A stretch of 64,000 bases of DNA. Origin: Acidobacteriota bacterium. GTDB taxonomy: Bacteria > Acidobacteriota > Terriglobia > Acidiferrales > UBA7541. Under the pieces are notes generated by a model, which was not told where the DNA came from, ran no database searches, and saw nothing but the letters and a program-made list of their open reading frames with translations. The DNA is taken from contig PMES01000054.1 in assembly GCA_003154775.1 (NCBI GenBank), positions 37,072 through 101,071 on the forward strand, read 5' to 3'. Below are positions 15,975 through 27,509 of this stretch, one piece after another (within the stretch, counting starts at the first letter, position 1; each line of letters begins with the position of its first letter). Made by a program: the position numbers and the translations under genes.

Positions 15975-16619
15975 ATGGCAAACGACTCGGTGTCAATGGC
16001 AGCCTCTGCCGCGCCGGGCTGGACCCCAGGGCAGGTTGGTCTCCTCGCATCTGTCTGCCTGGTCCTGGGGTTGGCCGGAGGTTACTTTCTACCTGCCGGC
16101 AGGGCGGCGAATCCCGCACATCCCCCCGCCGTCGCCAGTGCTCCGAGCGCTCCCCATCCCTTGCCAACTATGGAGCAAATGAAAGCCCTGGCCGACGCCA
16201 AAGCCGCTCCGCTCCTTGAGAAGCTGAAGACCACTCCCAACGATGCAGGCCTGCTCGCCCAGCTCGGCGCCATCTACAACTCCATGCATCAGTTCCAGGA
16301 AGCCGCTCAGTACTACGACAAGTCGCTCAAGCTCGATCCCAAAAACGTTCCCGTTCGCACCGAACTTGCCTCGTCTCTCTACTACAGCGGCGACGTTGAT
16401 GGCGCGCTTGCGCAACTGGATCAGGCCCTCAAGTACGATCCCAAAGACACCAATTCCCTATTCAACATCGGTGTGATCCGCTGGAAGGGGAAGAAAGATG
16501 CGCCGGGAGCCATCGCCGCCTGGCAAGAGCTACTCAAGGTGCATCCCAACCTCGATCGCCGCCCCATCGTTGAGAGAATGATTGCCGAAGCCAGGATGGG
16601 TGGCACAGTAAAGAACTAG
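15975..16619 (+). CDS. Membrane-anchored tetratricopeptide-repeat protein
   Basis: N-terminal TM segment, then TPRs (AAQYYDKSLKLDPKNVPVRTELASSLYYSGDVDGALAQLDQALKYDPKD). Confidence 0.8.
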   Translation: MANDSVSMAASAAPGWTPGQVGLLASVCLVLGLAGGYFLPAGRAANPAHPPAVASAPSAPHPLPTMEQMKALADAKAAPLLEKLKTTPNDAGLLAQLGAIYNSMHQFQEAAQYYDKSLKLDPKNVPVRTELASSLYYSGDVDGALAQLDQALKYDPKDTNSLFNIGVIRWKGKKDAPGAIAAWQELLKVHPNLDRRPIVERMIAEARMGGTVKN

Positions 16620-16656
16620 CTCGCATCAGCATTCTTAGCAGAAGGAGCCGCACATC

Positions 16657-17328
16657 GTGCCCGAGATCAAAACAACAAATGTGAGCGTGAATTGGACCTC
16701 CACTCAGGCCTTCGCCGTCGCTCTGATCTCCCTGTTGCTTGGCTTGGCCGGTGGCTGGTTTATCCGCAAGTCCTTCGTTCCTGCTCCCGCCGCAACCGCA
16801 GTCGCGTCTCCCGCCGCTCCGGCCGACAATCCACCTGTCGCTCCGCTCGGCTCTCTGGCCGCCATGCCTACTCCCGATCAATTGAAGAAGATGGCCGACA
16901 CGCAGGCTGCTCCTCTTCTTGACAACCTGAAATCTGACCCCAGCAATCCCGACTTGCTCGCCCGCATCGGCAACATCTATTACGACGTCAAGCACTACCC
17001 GGAGGCCATCGATTACTACGAGCGCTCTTTGAAGCTCCAGCCTGCCAACGCCGCCGTACGCACGGACATGGCCACCGCTTATTGGTATAGCGGAAACGCG
17101 GACAAGGCCCTCGCCGAGTTCAACAAGGCTCTCACCTACGAGCCCAACAAGGCCAACACCCTGTTCAACATCGGGATCGTCAAGTGGCAGAGCAAAAACG
17201 ACGCGGCTGGCGCCATTGCTGTCTGGCAGAAATTGCTCGACACTAACCCGAACTACGAGGCTCGCGACAAAGTGCAGCAGATGATCGATCAGGCCAAATC
17301 CGGCTCCCACGCTCCCATTTCCGAATAG
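16657..17328 (+). CDS. Membrane-anchored tetratricopeptide-repeat protein (tandem paralog)
   Basis: Same architecture as the preceding gene: TM then TPR (AIDYYERSLKLQPANAAVRTDMATAYWYSGNADKALAEFNKAL). Confidence 0.8.
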   Translation: MPEIKTTNVSVNWTSTQAFAVALISLLLGLAGGWFIRKSFVPAPAATAVASPAAPADNPPVAPLGSLAAMPTPDQLKKMADTQAAPLLDNLKSDPSNPDLLARIGNIYYDVKHYPEAIDYYERSLKLQPANAAVRTDMATAYWYSGNADKALAEFNKALTYEPNKANTLFNIGIVKWQSKNDAAGAIAVWQKLLDTNPNYEARDKVQQMIDQAKSGSHAPISE

Positions 17329-17764: not shown

Positions 17765-19642
17765 TTAAGGGTGCGGCTTCGCGGCCGCTGCGGGCGTCAC
17801 GCCTACCGCTGTGTGTGGGTGTAGATGGCAGGTCAGGTTGCAGGAGTTTGTCGCCCTGCTATACATAATCGGCGTTGCGCCGTTCGGGGCCACCACGTTC
17901 ACGTCAAAATTCACCAGCCGCTCGCCGGAGATGCTTCCGTTCATGGAGCCCATTCCATGCGCCGTATGGCACGCCGAGCAGGAGAATCCGTCGTTGACAT
18001 GCCGTGCGTGCTCGCTGAAGCTCGTATTCGCCACGATCGCGGTCAGATTGTGGCACTTGCCGCACAGCGCATAAGGCCCGTTGATCGATAGTTCCGGTGT
18101 CGGCATCAGATTCGTGATCAACTGCCCCGGCGCCGTCGCCTGCGAAAACTCGTAACGCCGTTCCAGGATGTGCGTCCACTTCGAACCGTGCGGGCCATTC
18201 GGTCCCAATCCCCCGAATTCGCGATTGTCGTCGCTGTTATGGCAATCCGTGCACAGAATCTGCACCCCCATGCTCCGCCCCTGCGTTGCCCCGTCCAGGT
18301 TCAGCATGTTCGCCAGCAAACTGGGCTGCGGCAGCGCGCTCATTCGAACGTGAGTAACCGGATGACTCGAGCTGCTTGCCATCGCGAATTGCGGTATCAC
18401 GTTAAACGTGTCTCCCGAAGTTACCGCGCGCAGCGGCAAGTACCCGAATATGGGATTGGCCACTTTCCCCACGCTCGTTCCATGGCAACGCAAGCAATTC
18501 TCATACTGATTGACCGTTGGAGTTACCACCGTGATTCCGTCCGTCGCGCTTACGCCTGCAACTCCGTTCTGGGATGCCCGCGTCATCGGCGGCACGGGAA
18601 AGGACGCCACTTGGCCGGACGCATGTCCATTGTGGCAATCAGCACAAGTGGCATGCCGGTTGTTGTTCAACACGTTGCTCTCCGCCGCGTCGTGCGCGCT
18701 CGTTCCCGTCATAAACGGGTGGCCAACCTTCGGATTCGCATATTCCGCAAACACATTCAACGCGGCAGGCGCCATGTTCGTGCCTCCGCCGTGGCACGCT
18801 ACGCAATCAGTTTCATTTGGCTGGCGCAGCAACCGGGTCCCGCCGAGCGCGTTGTGCAGGGCATGGCAGGAAATGCACGCATTCTGCCCTACCGAAGGAT
18901 AGCTCCCCGTATTTGCCTGTGCAGCAATCTTGTTTGTGGCCGTGGCATGAATGCTGACGGTCCAGCCCGCCAAGGGGTTCTGTTTCCCCGTCACCACGCG
19001 ATTCGGATCATGGCACGCCAGGCACAGATGACCGTTCGAGCTGTCCATCAGCAAGAAATTCGGTGACAACAGATCCGTCGATTGCACATGGGGGTTGTGG
19101 CAAGTGGTGCACTCAATGTTTCCTTTGATCAACTTGATCGTGCCCGTTGGATCCGCCGTCTTCCCCTGCGAAACCAGTGACGCCGCAAGGTCCGGCGCAT
19201 CCACCAGCGGCAACACCAGGCTGAATGGGTGCGATCCCTCCAAATTCGTCGAGAATTTGTCGGCCGCATTCATCTGCCCGGTCATAGGTATGGTCTTGTA
19301 GGCCACCGTCTGGCCTGGCGCCACGGTTCCGTCGTGGCAGCTCAAGCACAAGCTGCTCGACCCTCCCAGCAGGGGCTGCGATTCTTTCTCTGCCGCTGTC
19401 GTACTCGTATACGTTGTATACACGCTGGTCGAGAGCTGCTGGTTCCAGAGCGGCGTGTTTCCCCCAACGCCCGAGTGCGGCGCATGGCAGTAAAGGCACG
19501 AAGCAGACAGCCCGCCCTTGACCGGCGAGATCCCGCTTGGCGTCAAATCATGCGCGCCCAACACGTCTCCGGTGATCTGCTGGCCTCGCGTCATCGTACT
19601 GGCCAGCAGCATGGCGGCGCAGATCCACAATGTCTTTCTCAC
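17765..19642 (-). CDS. Multiheme c-type cytochrome (11 CXXCH plus one CX3CH)
   Basis: Signal peptide; CXXCH motifs counted in the translation, several as doubled-CXXCH/CHNPH pairs; C-terminal CNLTCH. Confidence 0.9.
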   Translation of the reverse strand: MRKTLWICAAMLLASTMTRGQQITGDVLGAHDLTPSGISPVKGGLSASCLYCHAPHSGVGGNTPLWNQQLSTSVYTTYTSTTAAEKESQPLLGGSSSLCLSCHDGTVAPGQTVAYKTIPMTGQMNAADKFSTNLEGSHPFSLVLPLVDAPDLAASLVSQGKTADPTGTIKLIKGNIECTTCHNPHVQSTDLLSPNFLLMDSSNGHLCLACHDPNRVVTGKQNPLAGWTVSIHATATNKIAAQANTGSYPSVGQNACISCHALHNALGGTRLLRQPNETDCVACHGGGTNMAPAALNVFAEYANPKVGHPFMTGTSAHDAAESNVLNNNRHATCADCHNGHASGQVASFPVPPMTRASQNGVAGVSATDGITVVTPTVNQYENCLRCHGTSVGKVANPIFGYLPLRAVTSGDTFNVIPQFAMASSSSHPVTHVRMSALPQPSLLANMLNLDGATQGRSMGVQILCTDCHNSDDNREFGGLGPNGPHGSKWTHILERRYEFSQATAPGQLITNLMPTPELSINGPYALCGKCHNLTAIVANTSFSEHARHVNDGFSCSACHTAHGMGSMNGSISGERLVNFDVNVVAPNGATPIMYSRATNSCNLTCHLHPHTAVGVTPAAAAKPHP

Positions 19643-20757
19643 TGCGCTCCCCCCGCGCCTGGCTTCGGCAATCCCCAGTAGTGATAAACCTGCACGCGCC
19701 GGTTCAGCGAATCCGCCACATAGATCCGGTCGTTCCGGTCAATGAAGAGTCCTGTCGGCAATTGAAATTGTCCGGCAGCCGTTCCCCGCTTCCCGAAGTA
19801 ATAAAGCAGCTCACCCTGGCGATTGAAAACCTGTATCGCGCCCCACAGCCCGTCCACCACGTACAGGTCCCCTTCCGAATCCACGGCAATTCCCTTCGGC
19901 CGGAACATCGCTCCGGACGAGTCGCCGATTTTCCCGATCGCGTACTGGAATGTCCCCGATTTGTCCAGCACTTGCACCCTGAAGTTCATGGCGTCCACGA
20001 CAATCAAATTGTTGCCGTCCAGACGCAATTCTGTCGGAAAGTTAAACTCGCCCTCGCCGCCTCCTGGCTTGCCGATTGTCTGCACCACGCTCCCCTGCAT
20101 GTCCATCACGTAAATCTTGTTGCGCAGGGTGTCCGATACATAAATGCGCCCGGCCCCGGAGTCGATCGCAATTCCCGTTGGCCGCTTGAAGATTCCCTCT
20201 CCATACTTTAAGGCGCCGATCATGCGCTCATACTTGCCATTCGCGTCGAACACAAAAATCTTGCCCGACTCCGAATCCGTAACGTAAATGTTGTCCTTGG
20301 CGTCCACCGCCACGCATTGCGGCGCAAACAGCGAGTTTTTTCCCTTATCGTGGCGCGCAATAAACTTGTACTTTTGCTGCGCAAAATCAAAAATGTGGAT
20401 CCCGAACGCATCCGGGTCGGTCACAATAATCCGTCCGCGCGAGTCGGTCACCACGCTGTAGGGCCTCACCATCGAGTGGTACTCCGGCGGTCCCGCCACT
20501 ACGTCCACCACCCGCGCCCAGAACCCTTTCTTCGGCTTCACGTCGCGTTCCCAGCCGAAGTTCCTCTCGTACACAAGCTTGCGCCCGCCCTCCAGTAGCA
20601 GCTCTGGAACGCTCACCTGCACCGGCGTCTTTTTGTCCGCTTTTTTGTTCTTCTGCCCGGCCCAAACCGGCGAGACAACCAGGAGAATAGCCACGGTCAC
20701 TTCCAGAATCGGGCCACGTCTTTTTCCTGATGCCCGATCTAGAAGAAGTTGAACCAT
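19639..20757 (-). CDS. NHL-repeat beta-propeller protein
   Basis: Repeated FxxPxGIAVDxxGxIYVxDxxNxRVQVF units; ATGA overlap with the 12-heme cytochrome gene. Confidence 0.88.
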   Translation of the reverse strand: MVQLLLDRASGKRRGPILEVTVAILLVVSPVWAGQKNKKADKKTPVQVSVPELLLEGGRKLVYERNFGWERDVKPKKGFWARVVDVVAGPPEYHSMVRPYSVVTDSRGRIIVTDPDAFGIHIFDFAQQKYKFIARHDKGKNSLFAPQCVAVDAKDNIYVTDSESGKIFVFDANGKYERMIGALKYGEGIFKRPTGIAIDSGAGRIYVSDTLRNKIYVMDMQGSVVQTIGKPGGGEGEFNFPTELRLDGNNLIVVDAMNFRVQVLDKSGTFQYAIGKIGDSSGAMFRPKGIAVDSEGDLYVVDGLWGAIQVFNRQGELLYYFGKRGTAAGQFQLPTGLFIDRNDRIYVADSLNRRVQVYHYWGLPKPGAGGAQ

Positions 20758-22571
20758 CGTTGCACACCAACGTAGAACGAGTTTAGCTGAGCGGGGGCAG
20801 TACCGGAAGCGCTGAATCCCTGAATGAACCTGCTATATCCCCCCGTGAAGAACATCTGCCGGTACTGATATTGTACGCGGCCAAACACATTCTCCGAATT
20901 GTTCTGCGATCCGATGCTGTTGCTCACCGTATCGCTGAACGCCCTGGCGTAGCTGAACGTAATTGTCAGCCGCTTATAGGGGTTGATTCCGATTCCTCCC
21001 CCATACGCATGACCTCCGTACAGGATCAGGTCCGTCGGCAGGGGCGTCGTCCCACCCGACAGCGGCGGCGTGATCACTCCATTCACCCCAAGCAGCCCTG
21101 TTCCGCTGGATTTCGAGTACGTGCCGTTGAATCCAAACCACCTCACGTTAAATCCTGTGCCGTAATTCTGCGCATTGTAGCCATACCCCGATGACACATT
21201 CAACAAGCTTTGTGATTCGCCGGCGTTGGCATTCCAGTGCACCGGCCCAATTTTTCGGCCCAACTGCCCGGAGTAGCCCCATCCCGAAGTCGTATACCCC
21301 ACCAACAAGGTCTGCGTGTTCTGAAAGTAATTCCCCGAAGCGCTCACGTCCCAAAGTGCTATCCTGCGGGAGTAGTTCACCACGGAAAGCAATCCCACCG
21401 TGCTTAGGTTGGAAGTGTCCTCCGTTGTGCGCGTGACGCTCAACGCCGTGCTAAACGATCCGCCCAGCAGCCGGTTCCAATAGTTCACCGAGCCCGTCAG
21501 CGCATTGGACCCGTACGCGCTGCCGAAATAGCTTTGATCGCGGTGCTCAAACGTCCCATAGAAGATCCAATGTTTTGTCAGGTTGTAGCTCGCCAACCCA
21601 CTCGCATCCCACGAATTGGACGATTGACCCGGCGTGCTCTGCTGCAGGATGCCACCCGCCGAAATGATGTTTTGGTACAGCGTCCCCAGCAAATTGTCCG
21701 TGTAGTTGAAATCGGCGCCCAGTGTCAATTGCGCTTCGGGATGGAAATTCACACTCGAACTGAACGTGTCCACCGTGCCAGTGTAGCGGCCATCCGAAAA
21801 ATCGGAGGTGAAATCCGACCGGTTGAAGTTCGCGCTAAAACTTCCGTGCAATGGCAGATTGCGGCTCGCCCCGAACGAATACGAGCTTCCATCGTTGTCC
21901 AGATTCTCTAGTTGTTGCGTTTGCAGGATCAGTGGATATTGCGCATGGGTCAGATTGTAGACATATCCGCCGTTCAGGTTGAATCCGTCTATCTGGTACA
22001 TCGCGTGGGCATTGAAGTTATGGTAGTCCGAAGACCCATTCGCATCGGTCCCGTAAATCGAATAATCATTCGTGCCTTGCGCGTAGTTCAACGAAACATG
22101 CGGCAAATCCGGTACATTCACTCCCCAGCCAACGTTAAACCCATTCGAGTTTCCGTGGGTCGTGTAATTCGGCAAGCCCGGGACGTCAAACGTGCCCAAG
22201 CTATCGTACGTTCTCGAGTAACTTATCGAGCCAGGGTAATTGCTCCCGCTGAAAAGCGATGCATTTGCGAGCACTCCGCTGCTATCGGAAATCGACGATG
22301 ACGTCGAATTGTCTCGCGATTGGTTGAAATAAGGGCTCACCTGAAACGATAGAAAATTGGGGTCATAAAAGGATCCGTTCAGCGTGGCATTCCCCCCGGC
22401 CGTGAGGCCATGGTCCGAGGGAATTTGGTTTCCGTAGTCCCCTGTGTACCCGGCGGAAATCTGCCCGTTCATATTCATGCTCACATCGTTTCCGACCGTA
22501 ACTTGCGCCGGCACGCGCGCTGCCGCTGCCAGCACGATGAAGCATCCGATCCACGTTGCGCGCCACTTCAC
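20739..22571 (-). CDS. Outer-membrane beta-barrel (porin-like) protein
   Basis: Signal peptide; long alternating amphipathic strands rich in Tyr/Asn/Ser/Gly; terminates in aromatic ...FYVGVQRWFNFF. Confidence 0.8.
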   Translation of the reverse strand: MKWRATWIGCFIVLAAAARVPAQVTVGNDVSMNMNGQISAGYTGDYGNQIPSDHGLTAGGNATLNGSFYDPNFLSFQVSPYFNQSRDNSTSSSISDSSGVLANASLFSGSNYPGSISYSRTYDSLGTFDVPGLPNYTTHGNSNGFNVGWGVNVPDLPHVSLNYAQGTNDYSIYGTDANGSSDYHNFNAHAMYQIDGFNLNGGYVYNLTHAQYPLILQTQQLENLDNDGSSYSFGASRNLPLHGSFSANFNRSDFTSDFSDGRYTGTVDTFSSSVNFHPEAQLTLGADFNYTDNLLGTLYQNIISAGGILQQSTPGQSSNSWDASGLASYNLTKHWIFYGTFEHRDQSYFGSAYGSNALTGSVNYWNRLLGGSFSTALSVTRTTEDTSNLSTVGLLSVVNYSRRIALWDVSASGNYFQNTQTLLVGYTTSGWGYSGQLGRKIGPVHWNANAGESQSLLNVSSGYGYNAQNYGTGFNVRWFGFNGTYSKSSGTGLLGVNGVITPPLSGGTTPLPTDLILYGGHAYGGGIGINPYKRLTITFSYARAFSDTVSNSIGSQNNSENVFGRVQYQYRQMFFTGGYSRFIQGFSASGTAPAQLNSFYVGVQRWFNFF

Positions 22572-22590: not shown

Positions 22591-23622
22591 CTACAGCACT
22601 TCCACCTTAGCCGTCGCCCGGAGTTTTTTGTCCAGCCCAGACCGCAATTGCTCGGTCTTCAAGTTCTGCAATTGCTTGCTCAGCGAATCTTTTACGTCCT
22701 CGAATTTCTGCATGCCAGCCGGGCTGTGGGCGATGAGCCGCACTATCGTGAGGGCTTGTTCCACCTGGATTAAGTCGCTCACCTGCCCGGGTTGCAGGGC
22801 CAGGGCCGCGCTCACCACCTGCGGCGGCAATTTGTCGCGATCCACGGACTTGTGCTCGCCCATCATCACGCGGTAGTCATCTTCCGAAATCTTTTCCGCC
22901 AGCAACCCGAACTCTTCGTAATTCTTGGTTGCCTTGGCCTGCTTTAGCGCATCCTCCGCCCTTTTGCGGGCGTCCTTTAATTGCTCGGGCGTGGCTTTTT
23001 CCGGGGGCAATATCGAAATCGTCTGGAAGGAAAAAGATTCCGGCGACCGGAACGTCGCGGCATTCTTGTCGTAGTAAGCCTTCGTTTCGGCCAGCGAAAC
23101 GCCGGACTTGTCTTTCACTTCGACGGCCAGCAATTGGTCAATCAGCAGCGAACGCCGGACTTTCTGCCGCAGCACTTGCTCCGAGCCTTGGCATTCCCAG
23201 GTCATAAATCCTTTGTAGTCGTCGGGACTCTTGAACTGCTTCCGAAACTCCGCCACGGCGTGATCCAATTTCGCAGGCGTCACCGTCATCCCCCGCCGCT
23301 TGGCTTCCTGGTATACCAACTCCTCAAACACAATCATTTGCAGCGCGCCCTTGCGAATGTCCTCTTCCATCGCTTTGGGGAATCCGCCGTTGTGCTGCCG
23401 CGCATAGGGAAAAATCGTGAACATCTCGCGCAGCAAATCGCGGTCCGTCAGCACCGTTCCGTTCACCCGGGCCACCGGCTTTTCCGGGGGAACCGTCGTT
23501 GCGTCTGCGCTCGGCGCTGCCGGAGTGGCCGTCAGCTCATGAGAAACCGCCATCTGCCCCTTCGCAGATGACCCCATGCCCGCCAGCACCACCAGCATCA
23601 TCGCTATCAGCGCCTTCTTCAT
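22591..23622 (-). CDS. SurA/PpiC-like peptidyl-prolyl cis-trans isomerase
   Basis: MKKALIAMMLVVLAGMGSSAKG signal peptide; SurA_N-like VARVNGTVLTDRDLLREM and parvulin-like region. Confidence 0.82.
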   Translation of the reverse strand: MKKALIAMMLVVLAGMGSSAKGQMAVSHELTATPAAPSADATTVPPEKPVARVNGTVLTDRDLLREMFTIFPYARQHNGGFPKAMEEDIRKGALQMIVFEELVYQEAKRRGMTVTPAKLDHAVAEFRKQFKSPDDYKGFMTWECQGSEQVLRQKVRRSLLIDQLLAVEVKDKSGVSLAETKAYYDKNAATFRSPESFSFQTISILPPEKATPEQLKDARKRAEDALKQAKATKNYEEFGLLAEKISEDDYRVMMGEHKSVDRDKLPPQVVSAALALQPGQVSDLIQVEQALTIVRLIAHSPAGMQKFEDVKDSLSKQLQNLKTEQLRSGLDKKLRATAKVEVL

Positions 23623-23732
23623 ATTTCCCTCTGCCCACTTCACTTCTTTCCTCTTATTCCGAACCACGGATCGCTGCTCGCTCGTAAAGTGGGGGGAGAA
23701 ACTTCCTCCCCCCATTTCATGAACAACCCGGC

Positions 23733-24590
23733 TTAGGTCGTCGGGAGGTTCGTGTTGTGCATTTCGTTCGATTCGCCACCATGGCACTGACGGCAGAACT
23801 GCGCCACGGAGTTGCTGGTTGGGCTGCTGGGGTTGTAGTAGCCGCGGACGAAGAACATCGTCTGAAACACGCCCTTGACGTTGCCGATCGTGCCGGCATA
23901 GGCCGTCATGCTGTGCTGGTCGTGGCAGGTGGTGCAGTTCACCGCGGGGTTGACACCGTCAAAGGACACGGTGCTCACGGTGAAGCCGTAGTCGAGTTGG
24001 AACTGCGCGAAGTGGCTGCCCGCTGGGGCTACCAGCTTCCCGCCGGCAATCGTGCAATCCCAGTTGTAGGATCCGCCGCAGCCGATCGTGGCTAACGGTC
24101 CCACTGGGTGATCGTTTTTGTAGTCGCCCTTGCCATTGCCGTCGTTGCCGAGCCACGTCGGAGCGTGACCGCCGATAGCATTCGGGATCGTTTCGAAGGT
24201 ATGTCCCGTCATCATTCCGTTCACTGCCAGATTGCCGTCATGGCAGCTCAGGCAGAGCATGATGCCGACCGTCGGGTCATGCACGCCCGCAGCCATATTC
24301 GCCGGGGTCGTGACTGGGTAAGCGCCCGCATCGCCAAACGCAAACGTCTGGCTGTAGTACGGTGTCACATTCGCACCCCACAACGCCGCATCGCCGCTGG
24401 TGGTGTCCGTTGTCGCGATGCCATTGCCCCGTGCGCCGCTGTGCGGTGCGTGGCAGGCTACACAACCCCGTCCATAAACGAGGTGCGCACCCAACACGTC
24501 CGTCGGCGACGACCAATTCGGGTTCGCCTGGGCGGAAGCAAACGTCGCCGCCGCCAGAACCCCTATTAGAACCAACATGATTCTTTTCAT
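23733..24590 (-). CDS. Tetraheme c-type cytochrome (OmcE-like candidate)
   Basis: Signal peptide MKRIMLVLIGVLAAATFASA; exactly four CXXCH (CVACH, CLSCH, CTTCH, CRQCH); true start 24590 preceded by an AGGAGGT RBS. Confidence 0.88.
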   Translation of the reverse strand: MKRIMLVLIGVLAAATFASAQANPNWSSPTDVLGAHLVYGRGCVACHAPHSGARGNGIATTDTTSGDAALWGANVTPYYSQTFAFGDAGAYPVTTPANMAAGVHDPTVGIMLCLSCHDGNLAVNGMMTGHTFETIPNAIGGHAPTWLGNDGNGKGDYKNDHPVGPLATIGCGGSYNWDCTIAGGKLVAPAGSHFAQFQLDYGFTVSTVSFDGVNPAVNCTTCHDQHSMTAYAGTIGNVKGVFQTMFFVRGYYNPSSPTSNSVAQFCRQCHGGESNEMHNTNLPTT

Positions 24591-24736: not shown

Positions 24737-26056
24737 TCACGGAGTCACCAATCCTTGCGCCTTCGCTGCCGCGTCACTCTTCGGTGGCGCGGCTTCTGGC
24801 GACTTTTGGGCCGGTGCCTCTGCCGGCTTCGTTGTTGTGCTATCCGGCTGCGCTTCGCGGCTAGCCTTCTCTGACGCTGCTTCCGCATCGGTCACGTAGC
24901 GGAACACCTGCACGCGCCCCGGAAACTGCTCCGACGTCACCACTCGATTGTTCTTCGGATCGATGGCGATGTCATACGGGGCCGAGAACTGTCCCGGCCA
25001 GTTCCCCGGCTGGCCGAAGTAAATCAGCAGTTGTCCTTCGGTATCAAATACCTGCACCCGCTGCTGCACCGCGTCCACCACCCAAATGTGTCCGTCCCTA
25101 TCAATGGCAATCCCTTTGGGCCGCGCGAAGTGTCCGGGGCCATCGCCGCTCTTTCCAAACGCGCTTATGAATTTTCCGTCCGCATCGAAGATCTCCACGC
25201 GATTGTTCAGCGTGTCCGTCACATAGACGTTGCCCTCTTTATCCACCGCCACGTTCGTCGGCAGCGAAAAATTGCCCGCATCGCTCAACAGGTGTTTCTT
25301 CCCTGGCGTCCCGATCTTCCGCAGCAGTTTGTAAGTGTCCGCATCGAACACATCCACAACGTCGCTGCCCGTGTCAACCACATACAGGAAGCGGTTCTCC
25401 TCATCGATGGCCATGCCGCCGGGGCGCACCAGCACGTCCGAGCCAAAGGCGGCTTCCTCCTGGTGCTGCGGGTTGATGACAATCACCTTGTGGTGTTGGT
25501 CGTCACTTACGAAAAGCCGGTCGGTGTCGTCGATCGCCAGACCATTGATCAACCCAAAATGCGCTTCCTTGCCGTTGCGGATCAACTTCACGTCGAATTT
25601 CTTGTCGGCGTCCGGGTTGAAGATGAAGATCGCTCCCACCGCCTGGTCCGCCGCGTAGATATTCCCCTTCGAATCAAAAGCCAGCCCGTACGTTCGAACC
25701 AGTTGGAAGGGTAGATCTTGCACCGTATCCACCTGCGGCTTCGTGCCTGCCAACCGGTCCATCCAACTCTGCTTTGCCTTTTGCGGTTTGTTGATCGGTC
25801 TGTTGAAATCGATCTTTTCGCCCGTGAGTTGTTCCACGAACTTGACACGCGCGATCTCTGGCGGGGATGGCCACACGATCTTGCTGATGTCAAAGTTCAC
25901 TCGCTTCGCAAGGTTCGCGTTTGGGTCTGCCCCACTCTTCTTCTTTTTCTGGGCTGCGCCCGCAACGCCGGGGAGGATCAACGCGAGCGCCAGCAAGCCG
26001 GCCAGGGCTGCCATGATTTTCCAGCCGCGAGTCCTATTTGAGCGATGAGCGAACAT
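24737..26056 (-). CDS. NHL-repeat beta-propeller protein
   Basis: Signal peptide; repeated NHL blades (FARPKGIAIDRDGHIWVVDAVQQRVQVFDTEGQLL). Confidence 0.88.
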   Translation of the reverse strand: MFAHRSNRTRGWKIMAALAGLLALALILPGVAGAAQKKKKSGADPNANLAKRVNFDISKIVWPSPPEIARVKFVEQLTGEKIDFNRPINKPQKAKQSWMDRLAGTKPQVDTVQDLPFQLVRTYGLAFDSKGNIYAADQAVGAIFIFNPDADKKFDVKLIRNGKEAHFGLINGLAIDDTDRLFVSDDQHHKVIVINPQHQEEAAFGSDVLVRPGGMAIDEENRFLYVVDTGSDVVDVFDADTYKLLRKIGTPGKKHLLSDAGNFSLPTNVAVDKEGNVYVTDTLNNRVEIFDADGKFISAFGKSGDGPGHFARPKGIAIDRDGHIWVVDAVQQRVQVFDTEGQLLIYFGQPGNWPGQFSAPYDIAIDPKNNRVVTSEQFPGRVQVFRYVTDAEAASEKASREAQPDSTTTKPAEAPAQKSPEAAPPKSDAAAKAQGLVTP

Positions 26057-26075: not shown

Positions 26076-27509
26076 CTAATTCAGCCTGCCCTTATGACAG
26101 GTATTGCAGAAATCCATCCCCGGCTTCTGATCCTTCACCAACATCCCCACCTGATTGCCGGCGTGCGCCTGGTGGCAGGTCAGGCAGTTCATCTGGCCCG
26201 CCGCCGGATTCTTTGCATCGACCGGCCCCGCGATCGGATGGAACTGCACCGGGTGTCCCGCGTTGTACTTCAGCGACAGGATCGGCACGTGATACTTCTC
26301 CGGCAGCTTCACTTTCCCGTCGAAAATCGCGATCAAATGCTGACTCTCCAGCCTCTCCGGCACGGTGTCCGGCCCATGGCATTCCAGGCAAAGCGTGTTG
26401 ACGTCCTTCACTCGCAGCAAATGCTCGTTATCGTTGCCATGCGCGTCATGGCAGGTCCCGCAACCATCTCGGAATGCCGGACGGTGCAAAATCTTTTTTG
26501 TCTTCAGCATTTCCGCCTGCTCCGTATGGCAGGTCAGGCAAATCTCCACGCCATTTGTCTTCGGCAGCCCGGGCGTCTTGCTCGCATGCGGCGAATGGCA
26601 ATCGGTGCAATCACCCGCTGCTCCCGGATGCTGCACCTTCGCCGTTTCAATCTGTTTGGCCTGCTCGCCGTGGCACATCACGCACAATGATTTCGCGTCC
26701 GCCTGCGTCAGCACCACTTTCCCGTCCTTAGCCGGTGCGTGGCATACCTCGCACTGTTTGTCGGCAAACGGCGGGTGCATAAACTTCGCCATCAGTTTCG
26801 GCGCTGCCGACTGGTGCGGATCGTGGCACTGAAGGCAATTTGCTGTGCCGAACGGTTGGTTCTGGTGCGCCTTCTGCAAGCTGCTGTCCTTCGGATCGTG
26901 GCAATCCACGCAAAGCGCCGGCGCCGATTTGGTCAGGTGGTTCAGATTTTCGGGCGTCGGGTCCGCGCCAGTCTTGTGCGTCACATGGCACGTCTCACAC
27001 CCCATATCCAGCGCCGCGTGCCTGCTGCCCTTCTCCGGCACATTCAAACCTGTCGTGTGGCAGCTCAGGCACAAGTTCTCCTTCACGCCGCCCGACGTCG
27101 GCTTCAGCAATTGGTACTTGTTGTCCGAACTGTGCGGGTCGTGGCACTTCAGGCAATCCCGCACCGCTGGCTTGTGCACCAATCCCTTGATCTCCGCCGC
27201 GTTCTTGTCCGCGTGGCAGGTGAAGCACAGCGCTTGCGGCGTCGTGGTGGTCAGCTTGACCCGCGTTACATCCTTGTTCACTCGAATTTCGTGACACGTG
27301 GTGCACCCCATCGAGATCGCCGTGTGCACCGCCTTCCCTTTCGCCTTCTCCGCGTGGCATTCCAGGCACTTCGCCGAATCCGTGTTCTTCTCCAGCGGTA
27401 CCGGATGGATGTCCGCTTTCGCCGGCGTGACTCCCACCAGCAGAAGCACAACCGCACTCCCCAGCAGGATCGCCAGGTGCCGTGCGATCATGGCTAGACG
27501 CATCGCCAT
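26076..27509 (-). CDS. 16-heme c-type cytochrome (doubled-CXXCH type)
   Basis: 16 CXXCH motifs counted in 477 aa, in recurring CXXCHDPH-type units; signal peptide. Confidence 0.92.
   Translation of the reverse strand: MAMRLAMIARHLAILLGSAVVLLLVGVTPAKADIHPVPLEKNTDSAKCLECHAEKAKGKAVHTAISMGCTTCHEIRVNKDVTRVKLTTTTPQALCFTCHADKNAAEIKGLVHKPAVRDCLKCHDPHSSDNKYQLLKPTSGGVKENLCLSCHTTGLNVPEKGSRHAALDMGCETCHVTHKTGADPTPENLNHLTKSAPALCVDCHDPKDSSLQKAHQNQPFGTANCLQCHDPHQSAAPKLMAKFMHPPFADKQCEVCHAPAKDGKVVLTQADAKSLCVMCHGEQAKQIETAKVQHPGAAGDCTDCHSPHASKTPGLPKTNGVEICLTCHTEQAEMLKTKKILHRPAFRDGCGTCHDAHGNDNEHLLRVKDVNTLCLECHGPDTVPERLESQHLIAIFDGKVKLPEKYHVPILSLKYNAGHPVQFHPIAGPVDAKNPAAGQMNCLTCHQAHAGNQVGMLVKDQKPGMDFCNTCHKGRLN

Follow-up and report, generated by a model that had tools for sequence, protein, structure and literature searches.

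A gene in the stretch of DNA from a soil acidobacterium analyzed here (64,000 nucleotides in full, termed the window) encodes a tetraheme cytochrome, P0001. To judge from profile and motif comparisons, P0001 is genuinely related to OmcE, the filament cytochrome of Geobacter sulfurreducens, but larger. The operon concerned combines genes for an MtrAB-like conduit, for a subunit of the wire type and for an undecaheme cytochrome that bears a module of this same type, and the gene order is maintained across diverse Acidobacteriota of the class Terriglobia. The interpretation toward which we lean is that P0001 is an exported tetraheme of the OmcE kind and the partner of a trans-outer-membrane conduit, most likely as a homopolymer linked through residue H36.

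To our knowledge, it is an open question how cytochrome wires are linked to the outer-membrane conduits supplying them, and the joint encoding of wire-type subunit, conduit and undecaheme module makes this connection testable in a single operon. If the interpretation is true, OmcE-type electron wires extend to the mostly uncultured Acidobacteriota of soil. Iron reduction has been suspected for this group in a study that reported no OmcE, OmcS or OmcZ genes in its Arctic peat metagenomes (PMC3669403).

The tetraheme cytochrome P0001 and its distribution

P0001 carries the Sec-type leader MKRIMLVLIGVLAAATFASA and is presumably exported as a non-lipoprotein, giving a mature protein of ~265 aa (66 aa per heme) with a formal net charge of -8 and a combined Gly/Thr/Asn/Ser/Ala content of 48%. 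Exactly four CXXCH motifs are present, and nine of the 13 His residues are located outside of them. An earlier note on this DNA had given the same figures for mature length, heme motifs and additional His residues. The features of the gene, all in window coordinates, are as follows:

23733..24590, minus strand: OmcE-type tetraheme cytochrome P0001 (285 aa; ATG-started ORF; Pfam Paired_CXXCH_1 above cut-off; probable OmcE homologue)
24531..24590, minus strand: predicted signal peptide, residues 1-20 (from sequence: KR, hydrophobic stretch, AxA-type end; lipobox absent)
24483..24485, minus strand: H36, N-terminal His, candidate inter-subunit ligand (in 42/42 homologues; role by analogy)
24450..24464, minus strand: heme motif 1, CVACH, residues 43-47 (invariant; H50 next to it at 24441-24443)
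24240..24254, minus strand: heme motif 2, CLSCH, residues 113-117 (invariant)
24108..24110, minus strand: H161 in NDHPVG (invariant; the NDHP motif is also present in OmcE)
23922..23936, minus strand: heme motif 3, CTTCH, residues 219-223 (invariant; H226 next to it at 23913-23915)
23781..23795, minus strand: heme motif 4, CRQCH, residues 266-270 (invariant)

Pfam and NCBIfam provide essentially just a doubled-CXXCH name for this protein, and the AlphaFold model of the monomer, built on 12 homologues, is too poor to judge the fold (pLDDT 33.6). PADLOC returned no match, and a scan for promoters and terminators produced sites no more numerous than expected from shuffled sequences.

According to genome searches, the genome of origin holds one full-length copy of P0001. 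A scan of genome contigs retrieved 12 relatives, every one of them from an Acidobacteriota assembly, the closest being that of 'Candidatus Acidiferrum typicum' (93% identical), to whose genus the window therefore probably belongs. The P0001 profile is matched in 49 of 399 genomes of its class and in 8 of 89 genomes of its family, a distribution that is patchy yet recurrent. Several genomes of family f2 contain two tetraheme paralogues located ~3-8 kb apart and mostly in opposite orientation (G171:C19, G558:C74, G718:C1, G720:C62, G726:C57 and G728:C3, corresponding to loci L016/L022, L038, L039, L048, L044 and L045), with one of the two adjoining the undecaheme gene in G171.

Homology of P0001 to OmcE

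When the single P0001 sequence was compared with the PDB by phmmer, OmcE was not found. A profile of 12 P0001 homologues, searched against the whole PDB, retrieved 9YUQ (E=4.8e-12) and OmcE itself (7TFS, E=0.012). The best match, 9YUQ, is an OmcE homologue in its own right (E=1.5e-30 against OmcE), shorter than P0001 (218 aa) and labelled 'putative multiheme cytochrome c'; its 16 identical chains may represent a further cytochrome filament, and a literature search found no paper naming it. Chains of class III c3, c7, STC, NrfH, OmcS and OmcZ were all absent from the matches of the same profile at E<=10, as were the archaeal filament chains (PcECN/AvECN). The HMM comparison suggested in the earlier note detected OmcE, and did not detect the archaeal filament cytochromes at this threshold and at the level of sequence.

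The same search bears on a reading in which P0001 shuttles electrons through the periplasm as a soluble tetraheme protein of the c3, c7 or STC type, unrelated to wires. P0001 is indeed a small tetraheme protein whose heme motifs are weakly matched by the Pfam c7/c3 models, but c3 cytochromes have about 25-30 aa per heme, far below the value for P0001, and the absence of any c3, c7 or STC chain at E<=10, by which identity as a soluble c3 was rejected, together with the probable homology to OmcE makes this reading highly improbable.

The distance between P0001 and OmcE is bridged by intermediates. The family to which the window belongs includes two short tetraheme proteins, L060 and L062, that score about 1e-20 against the P0001 profile; L062, when compared with the PDB, matches OmcE at 2.1e-17 and 9YUQ at 6e-15. 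In all, the P0001 profile finds L062, L060, L058 and L059 at 1e-19 to 1e-38, and the genes for these four proteins occupy the operon slot typical of P0001, in the order NHL, tetraheme, PPIase.

A shuffle control was performed with a mature-only profile of 37 sequences and 1000 shuffles in which every CXXCH was kept. The z values amounted to 5.2 for OmcE, 7.7 for 9YUQ and 12.7 for L062, with the real score being reached by 0/1000 shuffles in each case, which argues against a pure CXXCH effect. When all His residues were fixed in addition, the OmcE score was reached by 3/1000 shuffles and the scores of 9YUQ and L062 by none. Because the direct E-value is modest and because of these three shuffles, the case for homology leans on the intermediates. 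Both observations would also fit an explanation in which the resemblance to OmcE is due to convergence or is an artefact of CXXCH-rich motifs, to which we give very little credence, given that intermediates in the same operon slot link both sides at 1e-17 to 1e-38, that the scores of 9YUQ and L062 are not reached by any shuffle when every His is held in place, and that the PDB profile search lists no further multiheme family at E<=10.

We consider with high confidence that P0001 is homologous to OmcE; the likeness that the earlier note had drawn from size, heme number and neighbourhood is now backed by sequence, weakly through the direct match to 7TFS and firmly through the intermediates. In a tree, proteins of the P0001 type form an Acidobacteriota branch of their own, and OmcE with 9YUQ, L060 with L062 and the undecaheme modules sit across a well supported branch from it, the exact branching order being unsure because of long branches.

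Conserved ligands and cysteines

Across the tetraheme homologues, exactly eight His residues are invariant (42/42), namely those of the four CXXCH motifs and H36, H50, H161 and H226. Such invariance places the P0001 pattern beyond chance, and eight His are just enough for bis-His ligation of four hemes. Alignment of all 42 homologues places the ligand His in the same order as in OmcE and 9YUQ, with H36 being offset from H31 of OmcE in the automatic alignment and paired with it via the motif context HD[LV]. The proposal that nine extra His residues serve bis-His ligation is thus correct as to their number, and as to conservation holds for these four only. The remaining five vary, among them H278 in the C-terminal EMHNTN, on which the earlier note had placed emphasis; it is present in only 13/42 homologues and is ruled out as a conserved heme ligand.

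The number of non-heme Cys residues is even in 42/42 homologues (two in 30, none in nine and four in three), and the pair is jointly missing from L012-L014. These even counts suggest a disulfide, which in P0001 would be formed by C171 and C179.

A conserved operon with porin-cytochrome partners

P0001 is encoded by the third of seven co-directional genes, which are separated by short gaps or overlap. The partner genes, in the direction of transcription, are as follows:

26076..27509, minus strand: 16-heme MtrA/DmsE-like cytochrome (16 CXXCH; 6R2Q chain A at E=5e-16, a chain with a wrong molecule name in the match table whose identity as MtrA is taken from the entry; DmsE-family match under the cut-off)
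24737..26056, minus strand: NHL beta-propeller protein (Pfam NHL)
22591..23628, minus strand: SurA-like peptidyl-prolyl isomerase, PPIase (Pfam Rotamase/SurA_N)
20739..22571, minus strand: predicted outer-membrane barrel of about 28 strands (AlphaFold pLDDT 72; top PDB fold match 6r2q_B)
19639..20757, minus strand: second NHL beta-propeller protein (Pfam NHL)
17765..19642, minus strand: undecaheme cytochrome with OmcE-like N-terminal module (11 CXXCH and one CX3CH; module matches 9YUQ at 7.5e-10)

The barrel protein, which has no match in Pfam, finds its closest PDB fold match, at E=3e-10 and TM 0.50, in 6r2q_B, the Mtr complex barrel. In the undecaheme cytochrome, the N-terminal module taken alone is sufficient for 9YUQ to be found by phmmer, and its motifs (GAHDL, CLYCHAPHSG, LCLSCHDG, GSHPF, CTTCHNPH and LCLACH) make up a complete OmcE-like tetraheme module, beyond which seven more CXXCH and one CX3CH follow.

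Among 58 loci with a tetraheme match, a PPIase gene is located nearby on the same strand in 53 and an NHL gene in 43, counts that serve as a guide only, since some loci overlap and others are short or end at a contig edge. The neighbourhood of porin, NHL and PPIase described in the earlier note is real, with the porin being an MtrB-like barrel, and it is conserved.

Two TPR proteins with CcmH/NrfG-like TPR matches (window 15975-17328, plus strand) recur beside the cluster and in some genomes their genes directly adjoin the tetraheme gene; they are possible cytochrome assembly factors. The 16-heme gene that neighbours the tetraheme gene is broken over two frames at L005:7422-8271, probably through a sequencing or assembly fault. 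Beyond the window, the same genome encodes more multiheme proteins (G000:C102 around 94723-99367 and G000:C82 around 2497), including NapC/NirT-type membrane cytochromes with 5-6 hemes, which could constitute the inner-membrane end of the electron route.

Proposed role of P0001

The OmcE homology, the ligand set, the conserved operon and the MtrA- and MtrB-like partners are supported by sequence; export, polymerisation, the assignment of H36, the adaptor role and the direction of electron flow we infer. In the proposed mechanism, the MtrB-like barrel would hold the periplasmic MtrA-like cytochrome with its 16 hemes, from which electrons would flow to the extracellular undecaheme and tetraheme cytochromes, as in Fe(III) or humic reduction, or the other way, as in electron uptake. 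The tetraheme would be an enlarged version of the OmcE plan, with long loops, a conserved tail at the C-terminus and, in most cases, one disulfide, and its eight invariant His would provide bis-His ligation of all four hemes in an OmcE-like linear chain. An extracellular role of P0001 together with the conduit is in our judgement highly probable; that P0001 forms filaments is, by analogy, somewhat favoured.

In OmcS, an N-terminal His is the donor of the inter-subunit ligand. By analogy, H36 of one P0001 subunit would ligate a heme of its neighbour and thereby generate a homopolymer. An inter-subunit His ligand is present in the filaments of both OmcE and OmcS (PMC9473688; PMC12307469), and what cytochrome filaments do physiologically is itself a matter of dispute (PMC11077965). 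The wire may be anchored to the conduit through the OmcE-like module at the N-terminus of the undecaheme cytochrome. A fuller version, in which the operon encodes a wire-and-socket set, with an acidobacterial OmcE-type filament being seeded on the undecaheme module as adaptor and a direct heme path leading from periplasm to wire, is put forward as speculative and rather doubtful.

P0001 might instead be homologous to OmcE yet non-polymerising, i.e. a monomeric or oligomeric extracellular tetraheme on the conduit, acting as a UetA-like terminal reductase or oxidase or as a shuttle between undecaheme and mineral. The longer loops or the C-terminal tail of P0001, both missing in OmcE, could block or change a filament interface; the tetraheme is always encoded with the conduit; some genomes carry two divergent paralogues per cluster; and the published account of UetA speaks of an extracellular tetraheme and reports no filaments (PMC10734462). 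Set against this are the strict conservation of the full OmcE ligand set, N-terminal His included, and the fact that proteins far closer to OmcE fill the same slot in relatives, and we regard the non-polymerising alternative as possible, though not probable.

Comparison with known conduits and filaments

P0001 and OmcE (7TFS) have in common four CXXCH motifs, ligand His residues in matching order and the motif context H ... CxxCHxPH ... LCxSCHDG / FCMSCHDG ... NDHPv ... CxxCHxxH ... CxxCH; both are acidic, and both consist of Gly/Thr/Asn/Ser/Ala to 48%. P0001 differs in its mature length (~265 aa versus ~210 aa, about 55 aa more), in its spacers (70 residues between hemes 1 and 2 and 47 between hemes 3 and 4, as opposed to about 52 and 25), in the conserved tail (GESNE..PT) of its family past heme 4, where OmcE ends, and in the extra Cys pair that the P0001 type usually has. 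Unlike OmcE, it is encoded in a porin-cytochrome operon, and the filaments established for OmcE are for P0001 a prediction.

The Mtr/Mto systems (MtrCAB, 6R2Q) resemble the window in the MtrA-like multiheme cytochrome (at the E=5e-16 given above) and in the barrel, for which the best fold match is that of the Mtr complex. The window's MtrA-like protein has 16 hemes instead of 10, its barrel has ~28 strands and lacks a Pfam match, and the MtrC/OmcA-type outer cytochrome of Mtr has no counterpart in the cluster.

The Uet (undecaheme electron transfer) cluster, uetABCDEFGHIJ, is described from Tenderiales and some Gallionella (PMC10734462). It resembles the window operon in encoding a tetraheme (UetA), a PPIase (UetB), a barrel (UetC), two NHL proteins (UetHI) and an undecaheme (UetJ), a set which also occurs together in the syntenic relatives of the window operon. 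The likeness is one of gene content only. Uet has three periplasmic trihemes (UetDEG) where the window operon has a 16-heme MtrA-like cytochrome and no triheme, and because of the absence of UetDEG the operon is here named Uet-like rather than Uet.

For a locus of Geoalkalibacter ferrihydriticus, the available part of its description lists homologues of MtoA and of OmcE together with two NHL proteins and mentions neither an undecaheme nor a PPIase (PMC12016550). Compared by this description, the locus shares with the window operon the combination of MtoA/MtrA-like cytochrome, OmcE-type tetraheme and NHL pair, which is thus already on record outside Acidobacteriota.
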